The translations under genes were made by a program, and so were the position numbers. A stretch of 64,000 nt of DNA from Parapedobacter composti. GTDB taxonomy: Bacteria > Bacteroidota > Bacteroidia > Sphingobacteriales > Sphingobacteriaceae. The stretch covers positions 62,001 to 126,000 of the forward strand of contig NZ_FOLL01000004.1 in NCBI RefSeq assembly GCF_900112315.1, in the 5' to 3' direction. The notes under the pieces were generated by a model. It was not told the DNA's origin. It made no database searches and saw only the letters and a list, made by a program, of their open reading frames with translations. Shown here piece after piece: positions 17,988-28,220 of the stretch. Positions within the stretch are counted from its first letter, which is position 1. Each line of letters opens with the position of its first letter.

Positions 17988-19235
17988 TTACTCGGATTGG
18001 GTAATCATCAGCGCGGCAACGGTCAGGTTATTGCGCGCATCGATTAAGATGGCGCCGCCGTTAGCTTTGTTTGCCACGTAAGAATCAATGGCCAGCGGGT
18101 CGGCCGATTTGAACTGGACTTTACCGATATCATTCAACCCGAAATCGCCGCCCGGCGATTTTTCCAGCGTTTGCATGTCAACGCGGTAAACCACGTCCTG
18201 TATTTTCACCTTGGCCACTTTGCCATGGTGCTGCAATAGGTATACCTGGCCGGTATCAAGCGGGCGTGTATCCATCCAGCAGATTTCCGCTTCGAACTGT
18301 TGCGACACAGCCGGCTGTTCATTTTGCTTGACCAGAATATCGCCCCGGCTGATATCGATATCGTCCTTCAGGTGAATAACCACGGATGCGCCGTCCTCGG
18401 CAACATCCAGCGTTTGCGCGGCCAACTCTATGCGTTCGATAACGCTGCTGAACCCCGAGGGCAGCACAACTACCGGATCCCCTACCCGGAATTCGCCACC
18501 GACGACGCGGCCTGCATACCCCCGATAGTCATGAAGTTCGTCTGTCTGCGGCCTGATGACCCATTGCACGGGAAACCGGGCCTGCGCGGTTTCCCTCGCT
18601 TTGCTGACAGTAACCGTCTCCAAGAACCCAAGCAGTGGTTTCCCTGTATACCACGGCATGTTTGCCGACGGGTTAACGATGTTATCACCCTTTAAAGCAC
18701 TGACAGGGATATAGTCGACTTGGCGGATATTCAGGCTTTCTGTAAGCCGCTCGTAGTCTTCTTTCACCTTATCGAACACCGCCCAGTCATAATCGACCAT
18801 GTCCATCTTGTTCACGCAGACCAAGACATTGGGAATAGCCAGCAACGATACGATGAATGAGTGCCTGCGCGTCTGTTCTACAACCCCCTTCCGGGCATCG
18901 ATCAGGATGATGGCCAGGTCGGAATTGGAAGCACCGGTAACCATGTTGCGGGTATATTGGATATGTCCGGGCGCGTCCGCAATAATGAATTTGCGCGCTT
19001 CAGTTTGGAAGTATTTGTATGCTACATCGATGGTGATACCTTGTTCCCGCTCGGCTTTCAGCCCATCGGTCAGTATCGCCAAATCCAGCGTACCGTCGTT
19101 ATTCTTGCGGTTGGCGCGTTGTATGGCCTCTAATTGGTCGTCCAGCACCGAATTCGTGTCATATAACAGCCTCCCGATAAGGGTACTTTTCCCGTCGTCC
19201 ACACTGCCCGCTGTGATGAATTTGAGTATATCCAT
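17988..19235 (-). CDS. cysN: Sulfate adenylyltransferase subunit 1 (GTPase)
   Basis: GTPase subunit of ATP sulfurylase, which couples GTP hydrolysis to formation of adenylyl sulfate (APS) by CysD. The 415-residue protein starts MDILKFITAGSVDDGKSTLIGRL, with the P-loop GSVDDGKST. DAPGHIQYTRNM is the G3 box and VNKMDMVDYD the G4 box, followed by two beta-barrel domains like those of EF-Tu. It is not fused to an APS kinase, in agreement with the APS reductase type of CysH in the same operon. The frame is open 49 codons upstream into the cysD region, but the family start is clear. Last gene of the operon, before a strong terminator. Confidence 0.95.
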   Translation of the reverse strand: MDILKFITAGSVDDGKSTLIGRLLYDTNSVLDDQLEAIQRANRKNNDGTLDLAILTDGLKAEREQGITIDVAYKYFQTEARKFIIADAPGHIQYTRNMVTGASNSDLAIILIDARKGVVEQTRRHSFIVSLLAIPNVLVCVNKMDMVDYDWAVFDKVKEDYERLTESLNIRQVDYIPVSALKGDNIVNPSANMPWYTGKPLLGFLETVTVSKARETAQARFPVQWVIRPQTDELHDYRGYAGRVVGGEFRVGDPVVVLPSGFSSVIERIELAAQTLDVAEDGASVVIHLKDDIDISRGDILVKQNEQPAVSQQFEAEICWMDTRPLDTGQVYLLQHHGKVAKVKIQDVVYRVDMQTLEKSPGGDFGLNDIGKVQFKSADPLAIDSYVANKANGGAILIDARNNLTVAALMITQSE

Positions 19236-19269
19236 TACTATCAGATTATCGTTCGTCTTTTCTTTGTTA

Positions 19270-20160
19270 TTAAAAATATCCGCTCTTTTTGCGGTCTTCC
19301 ATGGCGGCTTCAGATACTTTATCGTCCATCCTTGCACCGCGTTCGCTAATCTTGGATAAGCGAATTTCTTCGATGATATCATCGATATGGTAGGCCTCCG
19401 AGGGTACAGCTGCGGTGCAGGTCATGTCTCCTACCGTACGGAAGCGTACTTTCCGGTATTCGATTACATCTTCGTGATCGATATTCAGGAACTCCGCTGC
19501 CGCCATCAGCTGGCCATTGCGGGTAATGACATCCCGTTCGTGTGAGAAATAGATGGACGGAAGTTTAATGTTCTCCCTGCGGATGTAGTTCCAGACATCC
19601 AGTTCTGTCCAATTGCTGATGGGAAATACACGTACGTTCTCCCCTTTCTGGATTCGGCCGTTGTAGATGTTCCATAATTCAGGCCGTTGCCGTTTCGGAT
19701 CCCATTGGCCAAACTCATCGCGCACCGAAAAGATCCGTTCTTTGGCTCGTGCTTTTTCCTCATCCCTCCGCGCGCCGCCGATACAGGCATCAAACCCGTG
19801 CTCGGCAATCGTGTCGAGAAGGGTAACAGTCTGCAATGCGTTACGGCTTGCGTTTTTTCCCTTTTGTTCCACCACTTTGCCGGCGTCTATGCTATCCTGT
19901 ACGTATCCTACGATCAACCTTTCGCCCAGCCGGGCCACAAGCTCGTCACGGAACGCGATGGTTTCCGGAAAATTATGCCCGGTATCGATGTGTACCAGGG
20001 GAAAGGGAAATTTACCCGGCCGGAATGCCTTTTCAGCCAGGTGGACCAACGTAATGGAATCCTTTCCTCCGGAAAACAGCAACGCAGGCTTTTCGAACTG
20101 CCCGGCCACTTCACGCAGAATGTATATAGCCTCTGCCTCTAAATGGTCTAAATAATCCAT
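19270..20160 (-). CDS. cysD: Sulfate adenylyltransferase subunit 2
   Basis: Catalytic subunit of ATP sulfurylase: ATP plus sulfate gives APS and pyrophosphate. The 296-residue protein has the PP-loop LLFSGGKDSITLVHLAEKAF near residues 28-40, the following VHIDTGHNFPET, and CIGGARRDEEKARAKERIFS, all typical of the PAPS reductase/sulfurylase fold. The C-terminal end (MEDRKKSGYF) is the standard CysD tail. It precedes cysN by 34 bases, as expected for the heterodimer partners. Upstream lies cysH with a 42-base gap. Confidence 0.96.
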   Translation of the reverse strand: MDYLDHLEAEAIYILREVAGQFEKPALLFSGGKDSITLVHLAEKAFRPGKFPFPLVHIDTGHNFPETIAFRDELVARLGERLIVGYVQDSIDAGKVVEQKGKNASRNALQTVTLLDTIAEHGFDACIGGARRDEEKARAKERIFSVRDEFGQWDPKRQRPELWNIYNGRIQKGENVRVFPISNWTELDVWNYIRRENIKLPSIYFSHERDVITRNGQLMAAAEFLNIDHEDVIEYRKVRFRTVGDMTCTAAVPSEAYHIDDIIEEIRLSKISERGARMDDKVSEAAMEDRKKSGYF

Positions 20161-20202: not shown

Positions 20203-20907
20203 CTATGACGCCGCATGTAGCCCGCATTCTTTCTTGCTTTGGTCTTCCCACCACCAGCGCCCGGCCCGGAAGTCCTCCCCTTCCCTGACCGCCCGTGTGC
20301 ACGGTGCGCAGCCGATACTCGGAAATCCTTTGTCATGCAACGGATTATACGGAATGTGGTTCGCCTTTGCATACGACCATACCTGATCCAATGTCCAATC
20401 GTATATGGGATGAAACTTGGCGAGCTGGTTGCCGGCATCCCATTCCACCTGCGACATGCCCTGCCTGTTGTCTGACTGTTCTGCCCGGATGCCGGTTATC
20501 CAGCATACTGCGCCTGCCAATGCCCGCCGGAGCGGTTCTATTTTACGGATACGGCAGCATTCTTTCCGGTTTTCAACGGATTCATAGAAGCTCGACGGAC
20601 CTTTTTGGCTAATGAGCCGTTGTACGGCTTGAGTGTCGGGAAAATAGGCCTCAATGTCTTTTCCATAGGTTTCCAGCGTACGGTTCCACACGTAATACGT
20701 TTCGGGGAACAGGCGGCCGGTTTCCAGCGTAAATACCCGTATGGGCAGGTCGTTGCTGAAAATAAAATGGCTAATCACCTGATCTTCTATCCCGAAGCTT
20801 GTGGAAAACACGATCTCACCGGGAAACCGGTCGGCCAGTATCGTCAGTGCTTCCGTCACCGGTTTGCCTTCTGCCAATTGTTTTATCTCATCCAGCAATA
20901 TGTTCAT
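20203..20907 (-). CDS. cysH: Adenylyl-sulfate (APS) reductase, iron-sulfur type
   Basis: Reduces APS to sulfite and AMP using thioredoxin. The 234-residue protein carries the two cysteine pairs that bind a [4Fe-4S] cluster in APS-specific enzymes: KECCRIRKIEPL near residue 115 and GCAPCTRAV near 200. The C-terminal KKECGLH contains the catalytic cysteine. The cluster pairs are absent from PAPS-specific enzymes, so APS is the expected substrate, which fits the lack of an APS kinase gene. The start codon overlaps the end of the siroheme synthase gene by 4 bases (ATGA type), so translation is coupled. Confidence 0.94.
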   Translation of the reverse strand: MNILLDEIKQLAEGKPVTEALTILADRFPGEIVFSTSFGIEDQVISHFIFSNDLPIRVFTLETGRLFPETYYVWNRTLETYGKDIEAYFPDTQAVQRLISQKGPSSFYESVENRKECCRIRKIEPLRRALAGAVCWITGIRAEQSDNRQGMSQVEWDAGNQLAKFHPIYDWTLDQVWSYAKANHIPYNPLHDKGFPSIGCAPCTRAVREGEDFRAGRWWWEDQSKKECGLHAAS

Positions 20908-21503
20908 GCGTCCTCCTTTGATGCTATAAGCGAAGCGGTATGTGCATTCAGCTGTTTCACTTTATCGGTGAAATCTCCTTTCAGCAAATCCCGCAACTGG
21001 CTCATGTAGGTTAAAGTTTCGTCAATCTCCTCCGGCAGCGCGTCATTCAGCAGTTCCTTTATCCGCTTGGCGATGGTGGGTGATTTGCCGTTGGTGGATA
21101 TCCCCAATTTAAGGTTCCCTTTCTTGACCACAGATCCCAGGTAGAAATCACAGAGTTCCGGTTTGTCCGCCACGTTGAGCAGCAAATGCCGTCTGCGGCA
21201 CGCCTGGCGGATGCGGTTATTCAAGGCCGGGTTATTTGAGGCCACCACCACCAGGTCCACGTTGTCCAAATCATGTTCGTCAAAAGCGCGTTCGTATAAC
21301 CTTACCCCGGGAAAATCTTTGGTAAATGTGCGGACGCCTTCGCTTATCTGCTTGGCGACCACCGTGACGGAAGCATACGGACTATTTCCCAGTAACGCCG
21401 TGAGTTTTTCAAGCGCTACATGGCTACCGCCTACCAGAAGCGTATGCAACTGGTTCAATTGCAGAAAGACAGGAAACAATTCGTTGCTGGCTGCCGTTGT
21501 CAT
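20904..21503 (-). CDS. Precorrin-2 dehydrogenase / sirohydrochlorin ferrochelatase (siroheme synthase N-terminal domain)
   Basis: A 199-residue protein matching the N-terminal half of CysG (Met8p-like): NAD-binding LLVGGSHVALEKLTALL, VVASNNPALNNRIRQACRR, and the conserved NVADKPELCDFYLGSVVKKGNLKLGISTNGKSPTIAKRIKE block. It converts precorrin-2 to sirohydrochlorin and inserts iron, giving siroheme for sulfite reductase. The methyltransferase half of CysG is a separate gene (21500-22270) that overlaps it by 4 bases. Both are in the operon with the siroheme enzyme that needs the cofactor. Confidence 0.92.
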   Translation of the reverse strand: MTTAASNELFPVFLQLNQLHTLLVGGSHVALEKLTALLGNSPYASVTVVAKQISEGVRTFTKDFPGVRLYERAFDEHDLDNVDLVVVASNNPALNNRIRQACRRRHLLLNVADKPELCDFYLGSVVKKGNLKLGISTNGKSPTIAKRIKELLNDALPEEIDETLTYMSQLRDLLKGDFTDKVKQLNAHTASLIASKEDA

Positions 21504-22270
21504 ACCGCTATGCTGTTATGTTGCTGTACGGCAAAATGCTCATGCTTAGCCACCACGTCGCCGATAATGATTACCGCCGGAGCCGCAATTTGCAGTTGCT
21601 TTACCCGCGCCGATATGGTGTCCATGGTACCGAGCGCCACTTTTTCGTCTGGGAGTGATCCGTTTTGCACCACGGCCACGGGCAGACCGCCCTTTCCCTC
21701 GCGCTGGTAAATTCCGGTGATTTCGGCGAGCTTATTGAGCCCCATTAAAACGACGACTGTGGCGTTCGTTTTGGCTGCGGCATACAGGTCGTCGGAAACG
21801 ACACCCGCCGTGGTTGCACCGGTGATAACCCAGAAACTCTCACTTATTCCTCGGTATGTCAGCGGGATTCCCTGCAATCCGGCCAAAGCAATGGCGCTGG
21901 AGACGCCGGGGATGGCCGCGGCAGGGATATGGTGCTTGGCTGCGAAATCAAGTTCCTCCCCTCCCCGTCCAAACACAAACGGGTCGCCGCCCTTAAGGCG
22001 TACAACATGGCCATGGGACCGCGCATACGCTACCATCATCTCGTTGATCTGCTGCTGGCTATATGCATGGTGGTTAGCCCGCTTCCCTACAAACACATGG
22101 ACGGCCTCCTTGGGCGTGTATTCCAGTAACGCCTCATTAACCAGCGCATCATAAAGCACCACATCGGCGGTTGCCAACGCCTTCAACCCCTTAAGGCTTA
22201 TGAGGTCGGCATCGCCCGGCCCTGCTCCCACCAACGTTATTTTTGGATAACGGTTCATTCGTTCAATCAT
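21500..22270 (-). CDS. cobA: Uroporphyrinogen-III C-methyltransferase
   Basis: Adds two methyl groups from S-adenosylmethionine to uroporphyrinogen III, giving precorrin-2. The 256-residue protein has ITLVGAGPGDADLISLKGLKAL at the N-terminus, VVRLKGGDPFVFGRGGEE in the middle and PAAAIPGVSSAIALAG and LTYRG after it, all hallmarks of the SUMT family. The natural start may be either the first Met (22270) or the Met five codons later, just before NRYPKI. It lies 6 bases downstream of the sulfite reductase gene and overlaps the next gene by 4 bases. No vitamin B12 genes are nearby, so siroheme is the probable product. Confidence 0.95.
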   Translation of the reverse strand: MIERMNRYPKITLVGAGPGDADLISLKGLKALATADVVLYDALVNEALLEYTPKEAVHVFVGKRANHHAYSQQQINEMMVAYARSHGHVVRLKGGDPFVFGRGGEELDFAAKHHIPAAAIPGVSSAIALAGLQGIPLTYRGISESFWVITGATTAGVVSDDLYAAAKTNATVVVLMGLNKLAEITGIYQREGKGGLPVAVVQNGSLPDEKVALGTMDTISARVKQLQIAAPAVIIIGDVVAKHEHFAVQQHNSIAV

Positions 22271-22276
22271 TAGTTA

Positions 22277-24385
22277 TTATGCGCTGACCGTGTCACTGGA
22301 TTCCCTTTTGGCAAGTGACGCTCCGTAAAATGCCGTGGCAGCAGCCAGGTATTCTTTTGCAAAGGATTCCGACGGCTCGTGCTTATTGATTTCCAGCACC
22401 TGCGCACCAAAGCTGCCCGCGAAGGGAAACTCTCCCGTTTCAACGAAATGCGTGTCAAAATCTTTGATGATGGCGTGCTGTGAACTGCTGTGGACGCCCT
22501 TATCGAGCAGCAACGCCTTTGCGGCGCTGACAAATACGCTGTATGCATGATAAATGGCATCCGCATAAGCCCCGGCGTTGAAGCTTTCGTTGGCCCACCC
22601 GAGTTTTTCCTCCGCTTCAAACAACAACGTGGCAACCAAATCAATCACCACACCTGCACATTCGCCCACGCCAATTGCGGTCTGGAAAGTTTCTTCATGG
22701 CCCCAATCCACGAACTCATCATCCGTTAAGGTAGTGAGATCGGCCAGGGGTTTCAGCAACCGGTAGAAATAATCTTTTGTCTGCCTGTCGTAATACTGGT
22801 GGAACAGCTCGCCCTCATGCGCATTCGCTGCATAATCGTCCAACAGGAGGCGCAATACATCCGTCACTCTTTTGGAGGGCACTTTTACAACCCTATCTGC
22901 GGCACGCCCGATGCCATCGCCAAGGGTACCGCCCCCAAGCATCACCTGGGCAGCCGGCACCACTTTACCTGCCGCTTTCAACGAACTGCCATGCAGCCCG
23001 ATATGAGCCAGCCCATGCTGGCCGCAGGAGTTCATGCAGCCGCTGATTTTAATCTTCAGCTCCCGGTTATACACCAGATCTGCATACTCATCGTAAATCA
23101 ATTTTTCAAGCACCCGGGCCATTTCCGTGCTATTTGAAATGCCCAGGTTACACGTATCCGTACCGGGGCAGGTCGTCACATCGGCTACGCTGTCGAATCC
23201 CGGGGCTGCCAGCCCGAGTTCGTCCAATACCGCATAGATATGCGGCAGGGATTCCTTGCGGACAAATTTAAATAAGAAGCCTTGGTTTTGCGTGATGCGG
23301 ATTTCGTCAGCAATGTGTCCCCGCAAACCGTCAACCAACTTCCTGGCCTTCCAGGTAGGCAGGTCGCCGGTAGACACCTTTACGTATACGATGTAGAACC
23401 CAGCTTGCTTCTGTGGTGACACATTTGTTTTTTCCCATAATTCATAAGCTACTGGATTTTCAATTGTTACCGATGGCACCTGAACCGTTTCCGGAGGTTC
23501 GGGCTGGGGTACCGTATCGCGATCAATCACAAATGACTTCACCTTGTTGGCCGTACGTTCCTCGTCTATCAGACGCAACACCTCTTCCAGTCCTATTTTT
23601 TGAATCAAAAACTTAAACCGTGCCTTGTTGCGATTGTTACGTTCGCCGTAACGGTCGAATACCCGGATAACGCTTTCTGAATAGGGAATCAGTTGGTCTT
23701 CCGGCAGAAACTCATGCACCACATGCGCAATCATCGGCTGGGCGCCCAGTCCGCCCCCGAGCATCACCTTAAAACCACGCTGCTCTACGCCATTCACCGT
23801 CCGGATTTTCGGGATAAATCCTAAATCGTGTGCATAGGTAAAAGCCGTATCCCGCACACTGGAGGAAAATGCGAACTTAAACTTGCGTCCCATTTCCTGG
23901 CAAATCGGATTGCGGAGAAAATAAGCGAACAACGCATGCGCGTATGGCGACACATCAAAGGGTTCTTCCGGATCGATGCCTGCCGTGGGCGAGGCCGTAA
24001 CATTGCGCACGGTGTTTCCGCAGGCTTCCCGCAGGGTTATATCATCCTGCGCCAGTTTAGCCCACAATTCAGGCGTCTTATCAAGACTCACATAATGGAT
24101 TTGAATGTCCTGGCGGGTGGTCAGGTGTAGATTGCGGCTCGCATATTCGTCTGAAATATCAGCAATGCGCAGCAATTGTTTAAACGTTACTTTGCCGAAG
24201 GGCAATTTAATCCGCACCATCTGAACCCCCGGCTGCCGCTGGCCATAAACGCCGCGGGCAAGCCGCAGGCTGCGGAACTTTTCATCGGCAATTTTGCCTT
24301 CATGAAACGCCCGGATCTTGCGTTCGAGTTCGATGATTTCTTTTTCGACAACGGGATTTTCCAGTTCGGTCCTGAAACTTTGCAT
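22277..24385 (-). CDS. Siroheme sulfite (nitrite) reductase with C-terminal HEPN-like domain
   Basis: Six-electron reductase, sulfite to sulfide, in the cytoplasm. The 702-residue protein has two ferredoxin-like and siroheme half-domains. The cluster and siroheme ligands are Cys406 and Cys412 (TTCPGTDTCNLG) and Cys450 and Cys454 (SGCMNSCGQHG), and HLTTRQDIQIHYV lies near residue 88. Residues about 585-695 are an extra all-helical region (YADAIYHAYSVFVSAAKALLL) that resembles a HEPN domain but has no R-x4-6-H nuclease motif. The assimilatory context (cysHDN, siroheme genes) makes sulfite the likely substrate; nitrite cannot be excluded. It is the first structural gene of the operon, behind the attenuator described separately. 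Confidence 0.9.
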   Translation of the reverse strand: MQSFRTELENPVVEKEIIELERKIRAFHEGKIADEKFRSLRLARGVYGQRQPGVQMVRIKLPFGKVTFKQLLRIADISDEYASRNLHLTTRQDIQIHYVSLDKTPELWAKLAQDDITLREACGNTVRNVTASPTAGIDPEEPFDVSPYAHALFAYFLRNPICQEMGRKFKFAFSSSVRDTAFTYAHDLGFIPKIRTVNGVEQRGFKVMLGGGLGAQPMIAHVVHEFLPEDQLIPYSESVIRVFDRYGERNNRNKARFKFLIQKIGLEEVLRLIDEERTANKVKSFVIDRDTVPQPEPPETVQVPSVTIENPVAYELWEKTNVSPQKQAGFYIVYVKVSTGDLPTWKARKLVDGLRGHIADEIRITQNQGFLFKFVRKESLPHIYAVLDELGLAAPGFDSVADVTTCPGTDTCNLGISNSTEMARVLEKLIYDEYADLVYNRELKIKISGCMNSCGQHGLAHIGLHGSSLKAAGKVVPAAQVMLGGGTLGDGIGRAADRVVKVPSKRVTDVLRLLLDDYAANAHEGELFHQYYDRQTKDYFYRLLKPLADLTTLTDDEFVDWGHEETFQTAIGVGECAGVVIDLVATLLFEAEEKLGWANESFNAGAYADAIYHAYSVFVSAAKALLLDKGVHSSSQHAIIKDFDTHFVETGEFPFAGSFGAQVLEINKHEPSESFAKEYLAAATAFYGASLAKRESSDTVSA

Positions 24386-24410
24386 GGATGTTGTTTAGCT
24401 TTATGTATAA

Positions 24411-24484
24411 TAAAAAACCTCCCTAAATCAATTAGCGGAGGCTGTCTTCTACTTATGCAGCGGACACGGTGTGTAACAGCCTCC
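24411..24484 (-). promoter_or_regulatory. Transcription attenuator of the sulfate operon (antiterminator/terminator pair)
   Basis: Read on the minus strand, GGAGGCTGT (24476-24484) can pair with ACAGCCTCC (24437-24445), a perfect 9-bp stem. The CCTCC end of the second arm can pair instead with GGAGG (24418-24422), extended by CTAA/TTAG within the loop, giving a hairpin followed at once by six T (24412-24417). The two structures are mutually exclusive. The terminator ends about 25 bases before the sulfite reductase ATG. This is the arrangement of trp-type attenuators; the Cys-Cys leader peptide gene sits just upstream. Confidence 0.78.
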
Positions 24485-24486
24485 CT

Positions 24487-24519
24487 TTAAACAAGGGCCA
24501 TACAACAGGGCACCGGCAT
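24487..24519 (-). CDS. Putative cysteine leader peptide MPVPCCMALV
   Basis: A 10-residue open reading frame, MPVPCCMALV, with tandem TGT-TGT cysteine codons followed by a Met codon. Its TAA stop lies 2 bases before the first arm (GGAGGCTGT) of the antiterminator. A ribosome finishing at the stop would cover that arm and let the terminator form; one stalled on the cysteine codons would leave it free. An in-frame ATG five codons upstream exists, but the -7 box places the transcript start at about that position, so the shorter form is preferred. A second frame through the hairpin also carries Cys codons but has no ATG. Function is inferred from layout only. Confidence 0.6.
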   Translation of the reverse strand: MPVPCCMALV

Positions 24520-24538
24520 AATCGTTTGTTCCATAAGG

Positions 24539-24546
24539 CAAATATA
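24539..24546 (-). promoter_or_regulatory. -7 promoter box of the sulfate operon
   Basis: On the minus strand the bases read TATATTTG, an exact TAnnTTTG box, about 20 bases before the leader peptide ATG. No TTG is found at -33. The predicted transcript start is near 24532. Confidence 0.5.
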
Positions 24547-24693
24547 CGTAATGTATATAGAAATAGTAGAATAAATTTTTCAATTTAATCCATACGTCAT
24601 CATAAACGATTTATAATGAACATATTACGATATGTATTTGAACGCTTTTAAAAGTCTGTTGCCTGCCATTATATAAAGTCTATCAATTTTATA

Positions 24694-24721: not shown

Positions 24722-25711
24722 ATGAAGATAAGATTAGCCAGACGTTTTAACGCACTTTTTGGGGTTGCCGGGATACTACTGTTCCTCCCGTTTTGGAGCT
24801 GTGCGCCGAAAAATTCATCCGGAAGGGACGGCAAGAATGGTTTGCGCGGCACGGTCAGTATTTCGGGTGCATTCGCTTTATATCCTTTGGCGGTCATGTG
24901 GAGCGAGGAGTTCAAAGCCATTTACCCCGATGTCCGTTTTAACATTTCAGCCGGCGGCGCCGGTAAAGGGATTGCCGATGCGCTGAGCGGCATGGTGGAT
25001 ATCGGGCTGGTCTCAAGGGATGTCCATGAGCAGGAATTCGACCGCGGCGCATATGTGGTCCACGTGGCGAAAGATGCGGTGGTGGGCACTGTCAGTGCCC
25101 GTAACCCCAATCTTGACGCCATACTGGCAAGGGGGTTAACGCAGGAGGAACTGCAGAAAATTTTCGTTACGGGTACCGTATCCCGGTGGAATGAGGTGGA
25201 CCCATCATTTACGGCTCACGACTTGCACGTGTATGTCCGATCGGATGCGGCGGGGGCAGCAGAAACGTGGGCGGCATTTTTCGGGAAATCACAAGAAGAC
25301 CTCAGGGGGATCGGCATTTTCGGCGATCCGGGCGTCGTACAGGCCATACAGCAGAACCCTTTGGCCATCGGGTTCAACAATATCAACTATGTTTATGACC
25401 TCAAAACAAGGAAGCAGGTGGCCGATATCCGTGTGATACCCATTGATGTGGACGGCGATGGAACCATCGGACCGGACGAGGCATTTTATGGCAGTATCGA
25501 CAGCCTGACCGATGCAGTGGCAAGGGGAGCTTACCCCGCCCCACCGGCTCGCAATCTGTCATTCCTGATAAAGGGCAAACCTGAGGATGTGGTTGTGGTG
25601 GAGTTCATCAGGTTTGTGCTCACCAAAAAATCGCAGTCTATTCTGCTGGAAAACGGCTATATTCCGCTGAATGACGAACAGTTGGAGGAGGAACACGCTA
25701 AACTGAACTGA
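24722..25711 (+). CDS. pstS: Phosphate ABC transporter substrate-binding lipoprotein
   Basis: Binds phosphate in the periplasm and hands it to PstCA. The 329-residue precursor has a signal peptide with a lipoprotein cleavage site (FLPFWSC, Cys near residue 27). The PBP-like domain begins GTVSISGAFALYPLAVMW, followed by FNISAGGAGKGIADALSGMVDIGLVSRDV, with the Ser/Gly phosphate contacts, and GFNNINYVYD near the hinge. It is first in a pstSCAB operon without phoU. Phosphate is the usual substrate of the family; a related oxyanion such as tungstate or molybdate is less likely given the pst-type permeases that follow. Confidence 0.9.
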   Translation: MKIRLARRFNALFGVAGILLFLPFWSCAPKNSSGRDGKNGLRGTVSISGAFALYPLAVMWSEEFKAIYPDVRFNISAGGAGKGIADALSGMVDIGLVSRDVHEQEFDRGAYVVHVAKDAVVGTVSARNPNLDAILARGLTQEELQKIFVTGTVSRWNEVDPSFTAHDLHVYVRSDAAGAAETWAAFFGKSQEDLRGIGIFGDPGVVQAIQQNPLAIGFNNINYVYDLKTRKQVADIRVIPIDVDGDGTIGPDEAFYGSIDSLTDAVARGAYPAPPARNLSFLIKGKPEDVVVVEFIRFVLTKKSQSILLENGYIPLNDEQLEEEHAKLN

Positions 25712-25712
25712 T

Positions 25713-26606
25713 TTGAAATTTCGGATAATAAAAGACAGATTGATTGCTAATGCGATGCTGGTCCTTGCCATCGCGTCGATGTCCTTTGTTTTACTGATAG
25801 GCATCGGTCTTTATTGGAGAGCATCGCCGTTGTTCGAGACCCACAGCCTATGGTCGTTATTCAGCGGAAGCGAGTGGTCGCCCGCTTCCGGCAAGTTCGG
25901 CTTCTACCCGTTTATCATGGGAACACTGTGGGTCACGTTTATCGCTGTTGTGGTGGCACTGCCCTTATGCTTGCTTACCGCCATCTATCTGACGGAATAT
26001 GCCAAATCGAGCGTACGCAAGGTTATTCTGCCCCTGGTGAATATCCTTGCCGGCATTCCACCTGTCATTTATGGCGTATGGGGTATCTTTTTTGTGGTAC
26101 CGATAGTGCGGGAATATGTAGGCCCCGCGTTCACCGAGTATTCCAGCGGATATACCGTGCTGACCGGCGGAGTGGTGCTTGCCGTAATGATTTTTCCCAT
26201 ATTGGTGAGCATAGTGTCTGAAGTGCTGCGCACCATCCCCAAGGAATTAAAAGACGCTTCCCTGTCGCTGGGCGCAACAAAGTGGGAGACCATCAAGAAA
26301 GTTGTGCTCAAGCGGGCGCTTCCGGGCGTATTTGCCGCTACGGTTTTGGCAATATCGCGCGCATTCGGCGAAACGGTGGCCGTGCTGATGGTATGCGGCA
26401 ATGTGCCGTTGGCTCCTGGATCCGTCTTTGATGGCGGGTATCCGCTACCCGCGCTTATAGCTAACAATTTCGGCGAAATGATGTCCATACCGCTATACGA
26501 TGCAGCGCTGATGTTTGCTGCGTTATTGCTGTTTGTCATCATTTTCCTGTTCAACTGGGGTTCACGTATTATCTTAAATCGTATTGAACATAAATACAGT
26601 TCCTGA
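25713..26606 (+). CDS. pstC: Phosphate ABC transporter permease PstC
   Basis: Inner-membrane channel subunit, 297 residues, with six predicted helices (first at about 13-35) and the EAA-type loop for ATPase contact in LKDASLSLGATKWETIKKVVL. The sequence GIPPVIYGVWGIFFVVPIVRE is characteristic of PstC. The start codon is TTG, one base after the pstS stop; the ATG found 15 codons further in would remove the N-terminal amphipathic segment, so TTG is preferred. It pairs with PstA, which follows with a TGATG overlap. Confidence 0.92.
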   Translation: MKFRIIKDRLIANAMLVLAIASMSFVLLIGIGLYWRASPLFETHSLWSLFSGSEWSPASGKFGFYPFIMGTLWVTFIAVVVALPLCLLTAIYLTEYAKSSVRKVILPLVNILAGIPPVIYGVWGIFFVVPIVREYVGPAFTEYSSGYTVLTGGVVLAVMIFPILVSIVSEVLRTIPKELKDASLSLGATKWETIKKVVLKRALPGVFAATVLAISRAFGETVAVLMVCGNVPLAPGSVFDGGYPLPALIANNFGEMMSIPLYDAALMFAALLLFVIIFLFNWGSRIILNRIEHKYSS

Positions 26607-27457
26607 TGGGTATTAGAAAGCGAAAAGCAGAAGAATGGGTTTTCAAGGCGCTGATGGTGGCTGCTTGTTTGGTGGTCAGCTCAAGCCTTTTCCTTATTGT
26701 GGGAACCATTGTGGTAAAGGGTGTGCCTTACCTCACGTGGGACATGGTCACCCAGGTACCCCAAGGGGGGTTCTATATCGGTAAGGAAGGCGGGGTGCTC
26801 AATGCGATTATCGGTTCCCTTTACCTCGCGGGGGGAGCCACGGTGCTGGGACTGCTGGTCAGCATTCCCATTTCAATCTACCTGAACATTTACCTGAAAC
26901 ATGGGAGCTTGCTGGGCAAATCGGCCAAATTGGCTTACGATGTGCTGTTCGGCATCCCCTCCATCGTATATGGCGCATTTGCATTCAGCATCATGATATG
27001 GCTCGGCGTGCGGGCGTCTTTGCTGGGCGGTATCATTGCGGTGACCCTGCTCATCATCCCCATTCTGGTGCGCACATTGGATGAAGTGATTGCCACGGTA
27101 CCGCGGGAACTGAAGCATGCGGCGCTATCCCTGGGCGCTACGCGGTGGGAAGCCGCCAAAGTGGTGCTTAAACAGATTAAGCCGGGCATCTATACGGCGG
27201 TATTGCTTGCTTTCGGCCGCGGCATCGGTGATGTTGCCGCAGTGCTGTTTACAGCTGGATTCAGCGATAATATCCCGAAGTATATCGATGAACCGGCCGC
27301 CACGCTGCCCCTGGCGATATTTTTCCAGTTGAGCAGCCCGATTCCCGAAGTACAGGGGCGGGCGTATGCCTCTGCGCTTATCTTGACCATCATTATTCTC
27401 GTGATTGTGGTGGTCTCGCATTTTCTTTCGGCCAAACACTCGAAACATAATCTGTAA
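26606..27457 (+). CDS. pstA: Phosphate ABC transporter permease PstA
   Basis: Second channel subunit of the phosphate importer, 283 residues and six helices. The PstA hallmark FGIPSIVYGAFAFSIMIWLG and the coupling loop LKHAALSLGATRWEAAKVVLKQIKPG are clear. A long extracellular loop (LTWDMVTQVPQGGFYIGKEGG) follows the first helix. The ATG shares one base with the pstC stop (TGATG), so translation is coupled. The ATPase gene begins one base after the stop. Confidence 0.93.
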   Translation: MGIRKRKAEEWVFKALMVAACLVVSSSLFLIVGTIVVKGVPYLTWDMVTQVPQGGFYIGKEGGVLNAIIGSLYLAGGATVLGLLVSIPISIYLNIYLKHGSLLGKSAKLAYDVLFGIPSIVYGAFAFSIMIWLGVRASLLGGIIAVTLLIIPILVRTLDEVIATVPRELKHAALSLGATRWEAAKVVLKQIKPGIYTAVLLAFGRGIGDVAAVLFTAGFSDNIPKYIDEPAATLPLAIFFQLSSPIPEVQGRAYASALILTIIILVIVVVSHFLSAKHSKHNL

Positions 27458-27458
27458 T

Positions 27459-28220
27459 ATGACGCAACATCCGCTCATCAGTGTAAAGAACCTGAATGTC
27501 CACATCGATGGACACCATATCCTCAAGGACATTAACATCAATATTCCTGATAAAAGCGTTACATCCATTATCGGTCCGTCCGGCTGCGGTAAAACCACGC
27601 TGCTCAAAACATTCAACCGGTTGCTGGATGATACGGCAAACGTCAGCGTAACCGGCAGCGTCCTGGTGGACGACGAAGACATCTACGCGCCCCATGCTGA
27701 AGTAACCCACATCCGCCAGAAAATGGGGCTGCTTTCGCAGCGCCCTTACCCCCTGCCGATGTCTATATTTGACAATGTGGCCTACGGTCCGAGAATCCAC
27801 GGCATACGGAAGAAGAGCGAACTGGAGGCCATTGTGGAGAAACAGCTGAAAGACACCGGACTCTGGGAAGAAGTGAAAGACCGGCTGCACAGCCCGGCGG
27901 CTAAACTATCCATCGGCCAGCAACAGCGGCTGTGCTTAGCCAGGGGACTGGCTGTAGAGCCTGAAATTATCCTGGGCGACGAATCCACTTCAGCACTTGA
28001 TCCCGTATCCACCCATAAAATCGAAGACCTCTTCGTGCGGCTAAAAGAAAAATACACGATTGTGCTGGTGACACACATCCTCCGCCAAGCCCGCCGCATT
28101 TCAGACTATATCATTTTTGTCTACATGGGAGAAATCATCGAATTCGGCCCTACCGATGAAGTACTGCTCAACCCCAAAGAAGAGCTTACCCGCCAATATG
28201 TGAAAGGATTTATCAGTTAA
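27459..28220 (+). CDS. pstB: Phosphate ABC transporter ATP-binding protein PstB
   Basis: ATPase of the phosphate importer, 253 residues. Walker A is GPSGCGKTTLLKTFNRL, the signature motif LSIGQQQRLCLARGL, and the D-loop SALDP. Two departures from the common PstB sequence are visible: the signature reads LSIGQ rather than LSGGQ, and the Walker B neighbour is DEST rather than DEPT. The catalytic Asp and Glu are intact, so it should be active. Start chosen at the ATG 1 base after pstA, because the 18 codons upstream lie inside pstA and do not match the family. No phoU gene follows. Confidence 0.92.
   Translation: MTQHPLISVKNLNVHIDGHHILKDININIPDKSVTSIIGPSGCGKTTLLKTFNRLLDDTANVSVTGSVLVDDEDIYAPHAEVTHIRQKMGLLSQRPYPLPMSIFDNVAYGPRIHGIRKKSELEAIVEKQLKDTGLWEEVKDRLHSPAAKLSIGQQQRLCLARGLAVEPEIILGDESTSALDPVSTHKIEDLFVRLKEKYTIVLVTHILRQARRISDYIIFVYMGEIIEFGPTDEVLLNPKEELTRQYVKGFIS

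Follow-up and report, generated by a model that had tools for sequence, protein, structure and literature searches.

Conserved cysteine leaders and terminators upstream of sulfite reductase operons point to a cysteine-responsive attenuator in Parapedobacter composti and its relatives

The sulfate assimilation operon and its leader region

The window, which is the whole stretch of 64,000 nucleotides of Parapedobacter composti DNA analysed here, carries on its minus strand an operon for sulfate assimilation whose first gene, for sulfite reductase, begins with an ATG at position 24385 (Table 1). The gene order proposed in the first-pass annotation, i.e., sulfite reductase, cobA, siroheme synthase N-domain, cysH, cysD, and cysN, was confirmed by searches with profile families. 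The HEPN domain of the sulfite reductase lies at about residues 586 to 651 and is an unusual fusion for that enzyme family. A phosphate-transport (pst) operon (window 24722-28220, plus strand) is divergent from the sulfur operon.

Table 1. Positions in the window of the operon and of the elements that precede it, with the evidence for each
Feature	Position	Strand	Evidence
Conserved promoter-proximal motif CTACTATTTCTATATAC, candidate operator for an Rrf2-type regulator	24553..24569	(-)	Consensus in 68 leader promoters; exact copy once in genome
-7 promoter box TATATTTG	24539..24546	(-)	Sequence; Bacteroidota consensus TAnnTTTG, position per PMC9723704
Leader ORF MEQTIMPVPCCMALV*, 15 codons + TAA	24487..24534	(-)	Orthologous leaders: same start position, Cys codons
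Tandem cysteine codons TGT TGT, codons 10 and 11, predicted stall site	24502..24507	(-)	Sequence; Cys richness of surveyed leaders
Element 1 (ATGGCCCTT), pairs with element 2 in a predicted protector hairpin	24493..24501	(-)	Minimum free energy (MFE) fold of full leader; predicted 1:2 hairpins in seven Parapedobacter sequences
Element 2 (GGGAGGCTGT), antiterminator 5' arm, 1 to 2 nt past the stop codon	24476..24485	(-)	Folding
Element 3 (ACAGCCTCC), antiterminator 3' arm overlapping terminator 5' arm	24437..24445	(-)	Folding; Mucilaginibacter covariation of the equivalent helix
Intrinsic terminator hairpin GCCTCCGCTAATTGATTTAGGGAGGT, -12.4 kcal/mol	24417..24442	(-)	Folding; conserved
Terminator T run TTTTTT, after GGAGG	24412..24417	(-)	Sequence
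Sulfite/nitrite reductase-type hemoprotein with C-terminal HEPN domain, first operon gene	22277..24385	(-)	Pfam NIR_SIR, NIR_SIR_ferr, HEPN; NCBIfam
cobA, uroporphyrinogen-III C-methyltransferase	21500..22270	(-)	NCBIfam above cut-off
Siroheme synthase N-terminal domain protein, CysG N-terminal type	20904..21503	(-)	TIGR01470 above cut-off
cysH, phosphoadenylyl/adenylyl-sulfate reductase	20203..20907	(-)	NF002537 and TIGR02055 above cut-off
cysD, sulfate adenylyltransferase small subunit	19270..20160	(-)	TIGR02039 above cut-off
cysN, sulfate adenylyltransferase large subunit	17988..19382	(-)	TIGR02034 above cut-off

Between the promoter and the operon lies an element composed of a short leader ORF with two Cys codons and a terminator. 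The leader nucleotides ATGGAACAAACGATTATGCCGGTGCCCTGTTGTATGGCCCTTGTTTAA (24534-24487, minus strand) encode MEQTIMPVPCCMALV*. The frame first recognized here, MPVPCCMALV, is present on the minus strand with its tandem TGT codons and TAA, but it starts 15 nt (5 codons) further upstream, at ATG 24534. This outer start is common to relatives (e.g., MKQTNKITMLCCMAVLK and MKQTNEQKMYCCMPLE), and because the leader frame extends to it, the true 5' limit of the element is at about 24534 rather than 24519. At a Cys frequency of 1%, the chance of finding two or more Cys in 14 codons is P = 0.008. Beyond the stop codon, the minus strand reads TAA, then AG, then GGAGGCTGT (24484-24476). This arm, its partner ACAGCCTCC (24445-24437), and the GGAGG followed by six T (T run 24417-24412) were all found where the first-pass annotation had placed them.

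Exactly 4 nt separate the -7 box TATATTTG from the leader ATG at 24534, and the arrangement of box, four nucleotides, start codon, and TGYTGY occurs once in a pattern scan of the 4.6-Mb P. composti genome. In Flavobacterium psychrophilum, the TAnnTTTG box is placed at -12 to -5 relative to the transcription start site in the promoter description of PMC9723704, so that +1 would coincide with the first base of the leader start codon. The leader mRNA is therefore predicted to be leaderless, its start codon lying at or within ~1 nt of the transcription start. Few mRNAs of the Bacteroidota are otherwise leaderless: the share is 5.5% in F. psychrophilum (PMC9723704), and in Bacteroides thetaiotaomicron ~3.7% of 5' UTRs are shorter than 10 nt (PMC7366714).

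The motif CTACTATTTCTATATAC adjoins the -7 box and is retained in Parapedobacter congeners that lack the leader. An Rrf2-family regulator gene is located directly upstream of sulfite reductase in one Mucilaginibacter (L014:808-1245). The occurrence of the motif in leader-bearing and leader-less relatives, together with the position of this regulator gene, makes a second, promoter-level layer of control beside attenuation likely. The same observations would also fit an operon under promoter control only, by an Rrf2-type regulator, with the leader left as a relic. We give this reading very little weight because covarying alternative helices and Cys codons would not have been maintained in so many genera if the leader were a relic, and because promoter control and attenuation are compatible.

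Cysteine leaders and terminators in related genomes

Regions upstream of orthologous sulfite reductase genes were sampled at the level of genus, family, and phylum. Leader ORFs with Cys codons were found together with terminators in Parapedobacter, Pedobacter, Mucilaginibacter, and other Sphingobacteriaceae, seven genera in all, and the same arrangement of leader and terminator occurs in dozens of related species. Leaders from the same genus read MKQTNKITMLCCMAVLK, MKQTNKLMAPCYMAHR, MKQTNEQKMYCCMPLE, MKQVSVQEMCNCMPLE, and MKQFMHNLMPCTNAVK, all with a terminator downstream; examples from Pedobacter are MNKTTMIKNNMMFLCCRRSA and MNFNFIQNQNYMLRMYCCCKTK, and from Mucilaginibacter MTTIFVTNHNNLIFCCMRINTSRL and MKINHTNCPCCKINCYCCMNSDNPLL. 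The Cys codons, stems, and T run, which the first-pass annotation had proposed to look for in relatives, are thus kept across seven Sphingobacteriaceae genera and in several other families.

Cysteine is strongly enriched in these peptides. The 70 leaders with terminators contain 168 Cys codons (11.6% of codons), while shuffled sequences contain 38 ± 5.5. Both TGT (89) and TGC (79) are used, which indicates that the amino acid is what is selected. When the first start codon was taken blind to Cys, a short ORF was obtained in 67 regions with a terminator, and in 57 of these it encoded at least two Cys. Tandem CC was present in frame in 47 of 71 and in the other two frames in 3 and 5. As a control, frame +1 yielded 117 Cys codons, ~80% of which arise from ATG|T overlaps; such frames are mostly interrupted by stop codons and nearly devoid of tandem CC. 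Met codons account for 8.6% of leader codons (start excluded) and often stand beside Cys in Pedobacter, Mucilaginibacter, and Parapedobacter, possibly reflecting a methionine input or an RNA constraint.

The start codon, ATG in all but the 6 of 70 leaders that use GTG, lies exactly 4 nt past TAnnTTTG in 46 of the 70, and this spacing is universal among the leaders of Parapedobacter, Pedobacter, and group g21 in that set. The fixed distance from promoter to start suggests that leaderless leader peptides could serve as a useful search signature for other attenuators in the Bacteroidota.

Cys leader and terminator are strongly associated among 137 distinct regions (Fisher p = 7e-19), with 69 regions having both, 50 neither, 8 the leader only, and 10 the terminator only. 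The two are therefore mostly retained or lost jointly across relatives. This bears on the possibility that the product of the ORF is a small Cys-rich protein with a function of its own, in metal or redox binding, and that the terminator is ordinary punctuation. Cys-rich microproteins exist, and the peptides found here carry up to 6 or 7 Cys; however, only the start and the Cys residues are conserved, while length (about 13 to 30 aa), order, and other residues vary, and leaders are mostly lost along with terminators. The one recurrent C terminus, the RL* of Mucilaginibacter, is accounted for by an RNA element that lies over the stop codon, as described below. We consider a small-protein function highly improbable.

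In most sequences, the last Cys codon is found 6 to 30 nt before the stop codon and element 2 at about -8 to +20 relative to it. Leaders of group g7 and two leaders of group g18 are exceptions: a distance of 45 nt separates their Cys codons from the stop, which is at odds with the simple geometry. In two further regions upstream of sulfite reductase (L008 and L050), the terminator is kept and the 5' start codon opens a frame other than that of the tandem Cys codons, owing to a frameshift, decay, an assembly error, or the use of another start.

Rival helices and the predicted mechanism

The region from the interior of the first arm to the T run folds better than 200 of 200 shuffled sequences (z = -3.2 and -3.8); the stability of the whole leader as free RNA is not unusual relative to shuffles (z = -1.05). 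The first-pass annotation held that a stalled ribosome and a ribosome at the stop codon leave the RNA in two different folds. In the window, before element 4, the partner of element 3 in the terminator, has been made, a ribosome stalled at Cys leaves a preterminator RNA that folds as the antiterminator at -22.1 kcal/mol, while with a ribosome at the stop codon the antiterminator is barred and the same region reaches only -8.2 kcal/mol. In the finished transcript, the minimum in the stalled state still contains the terminator (-23.4 kcal/mol versus about -22.1 kcal/mol for the antiterminator before element 4). Because the terminator belongs to the stalled-state minimum once element 4 has been made, read-through must depend on the order of folding, i.e., on kinetics. 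The attenuation decision in the trp operon is likewise kinetic.

All seven terminator-bearing Parapedobacter regions are predicted to be able to form the 1:2 hairpin, the antiterminator, and the terminator, and the antiterminators of the seven reach -9.5 to -20 kcal/mol before element 4 exists. Folding predicts the protector (1:2) hairpin in the window and in the six other Parapedobacter regions, an addition to the trp-like reading of the first-pass annotation that would make the design fully trp-like. The consensus fold of the seven Parapedobacter sequences contains the terminator alone, because the alternative helix competes with it and the alignment is poor. The antiterminator was therefore tested by hand and on an alignment of Mucilaginibacter sequences.

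The leader stop codon of Mucilaginibacter (..CGG CTG TAA) is overlapped by element 2 (GGCTG or GGCTA); this overlap explains the recurrent C-terminal RL of these leaders. Element 2 pairs with CAGCC or TAGCC on the 5' side of the terminator. Columns 15 and 49 of the alignment, which pair in the antiterminator, are G-C in 8 sequences and A-U in 7 with zero exceptions, a covariation score reached by 0 of 500 shuffles and far above that of slid controls. Column 49 has a second partner in the terminator, column 61, with which it forms C-G in 7 sequences and U-A in 7, so that the three positions switch together between G/C/G and A/T/A. One base thus changes in step with each of two competing partners, and this is direct evidence that the helices exclude one another, as had been claimed from the P. 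composti sequence. Furthermore, the helix core GACTG:CAGTC of Pedobacter varies to GGCTG:CGGTC and to AACTG:CAGTT, the latter in L058. Across 69 sequences, pairing between the stop region and the 5' side of the terminator was on average moderately stronger than in shuffles (mean z -1.26) and reached p < 0.05 alone in only 30%.

An alternative terminator and antiterminator in front of a sulfur operon would also fit a metabolite riboswitch or a T-box that governs the terminator, the ORF being incidental. We regard this as a very slim prospect: the sequence outside the pairing elements is free to vary, with no conserved aptamer-like core, and conservation falls instead on the start, frame, and Cys codons of the ORF. 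A search with 4,227 Rfam families for a riboswitch or T-box was empty, both at gathering level in the window and at E ≤ 1 in 24360-24620.

The remaining alternative is that the ORF acts by translational coupling or RNA accessibility in the manner of mycobacteria, Cys stalling opening the start site of sulfite reductase and the hairpin being incidental. In the mycobacterial work as summarized in PMC9031893, which cites Canestrari 2020, and as predicted in PMC1262725, leaderless poly-Cys ORFs work without a terminator, and the Bacteroidota leaders are likewise predicted to have a leaderless poly-Cys start. We nevertheless judge this alternative very unlikely, although a little less so than those above, because almost every region with a leader has a T-run terminator ahead of the gene start, gains and losses of leader and terminator mostly coincide, and the covariation involves the 5' arm of the terminator and its rival helix rather than the start site.

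The element is thus very probably a transcription attenuator worked by the ribosome, with charged tRNA-Cys as its signal and the sulfate assimilation operon as its target, and the conservation of Cys codons, stems, and T run lends strong support to the cysteine version of trp-like attenuation put forward in the first-pass annotation. The sequences show the anatomy, its conservation, and the covariation of the rival helices, from which we infer leaderless initiation, stalling, and a response to cysteine, in the following order. Transcription by RNA polymerase would begin on the A of ATG 24534 or no more than about 1 nt away from it, and the spacing of the box suggests that a ribosome would load on the leaderless start. 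With ample Cys-tRNA, the ribosome would reach the TAA and cover element 2, leaving elements 3 and 4 to pair, and the terminator would form and halt transcription before sulfite reductase. With scarce Cys-tRNA, the ribosome would stall at Cys codons 10 and 11 and cover element 1; element 2 would be free to pair with element 3 while element 4 is still being made, and polymerase would read into the operon. If there were no translation, the 1:2 hairpin would form and the terminator would again be favored. Since the arrangement recurs in dozens of related species, the operon is very probably switched on only when ribosomes run short of cysteine. This offers a specific, testable answer to the question of how, in many Bacteroidota, sulfate assimilation is adjusted to the need for cysteine.

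Known attenuators and phylogenetic distribution

Leader-peptide attenuation is a classical mechanism. Attenuators of the trp/his type share with the P. composti element tandem codons for the end product, a terminator before the first structural gene, a stop codon beside the antiterminator arm, and a protector hairpin, which is predicted here. The P. composti element differs in that it appears to sense cysteine, precedes genes for sulfate assimilation, has a start predicted at the 5' end of the mRNA, and resides in a member of the Bacteroidota.

Cysteine attenuation with an intrinsic terminator has been predicted computationally for uORFC-8-2, upstream of cysS in Rhodobacterales (PMC8632094). 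There too, a short ORF with tandem Cys codons is followed by a terminator-like stem and a U run, but the phylum and the gene are different (sulfite reductase, and in one relative cysH, rather than cysS), a leaderless start has not been reported for uORFC-8-2, and there is no evidence of homology. Poly-Cys leaders without terminators have been predicted for mycobacterial cys operons (PMC1262725) and, according to the account in PMC9031893 of Canestrari 2020, were shown to act via translation. The mycobacterial ORFs resemble the Bacteroidota leaders in their contiguous Cys codons before cysteine or sulfur operons, and in a leaderless start and the use of cysteine-dependent ribosome speed as the signal (both predicted in Bacteroidota); they have no conserved terminator hairpin and are translational, whereas the conserved terminator and rival helix of the Bacteroidota point to transcription.

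Within the phylum, leader-peptide attenuation has been suspected before amino acid operons of F. psychrophilum (PMC9723704), and sORFs have been described in long 5' UTRs of B. thetaiotaomicron (PMC7366714). These cases share the phylum and the general mechanism proposed, and the passages found in their main texts name no case involving cysteine or sulfur assimilation. The literature searched, an incomplete coverage of main texts, contained no report of a cysteine attenuator in the Bacteroidota or before a sulfite reductase operon. The suggestion that the P. composti element might be new therefore agrees with this search as regards cysteine in the Bacteroidota, but it needs to be narrowed, given the precedents for cysteine attenuation outside the phylum and the general leader-peptide attenuation suspected in Flavobacterium. 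The present analysis extends leader-peptide attenuation to cysteine and sulfur in the Bacteroidota, with evidence from covariation. More tentatively, as a proposal that we find plausible rather than probable, these leaders may form a class of cysteine attenuators that is widespread in the Bacteroidota and has so far gone undescribed, in which ribosomes load on a 5'-terminal leader start codon and initiation is coupled to promoter escape; the module would be portable (sulfite reductase, cysH), could be tandem, and might read methionine besides cysteine, given how often Met codons adjoin the Cys codons.

Mapped on a tree of the sulfite reductases, the trait clusters within much of the Sphingobacteriaceae, and parsimony on this quickly built tree gives at least 18 state changes for the leader. 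The element is missing from two Parapedobacter congeners (L005 and L009), which represent losses, and from several Mucilaginibacter. Nor is it universal in the order Sphingobacteriales, since no Cys leader was found upstream of sulfite reductase in any of the 21 Sphingobacterium regions sampled or in several other genera surveyed. Such gains and losses, together with duplications, make up a natural set for comparing the parts of the attenuator. When 251 genomes of the family were scanned for the box, start, and TGYTGY pattern, the matches besides sulfite reductase leaders were mostly scattered chance matches, and no second regulon member was found. In Flavobacteriaceae-type operons, the 7 kb upstream of sulfite reductase contained no convincing leader except in L197, where the leader lies between an upstream gene and sulfite reductase.

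Outside the Sphingobacteriaceae, Cys leaders and terminators are found in Chitinophaga and Adhaeribacter. Leaders with terminators also occur in other Bacteroidota families, at L031 (MKSKIQIQKSTMCYMCCCCMRMRKGYVDR), L209 (MNDITFKAGTIRIAMMCCCCCMMNDSSGSDL), L197, L207, and L213. The leader at L207, MLDANNPCCCCCCC, contains seven consecutive Cys codons and precedes a cysH-like gene, not sulfite reductase; the first gene downstream of the leader therefore varies, while the sulfur pathway is constant. At L213, two complete modules of Cys leader and terminator, MKAKKSNMKMMNNGMCCCCAFLWRG and MINQNKMMCCCCKSTERWKW, are arranged in tandem before one sulfite reductase gene, both within the last about 350 nt before that gene and at the end of a contig.
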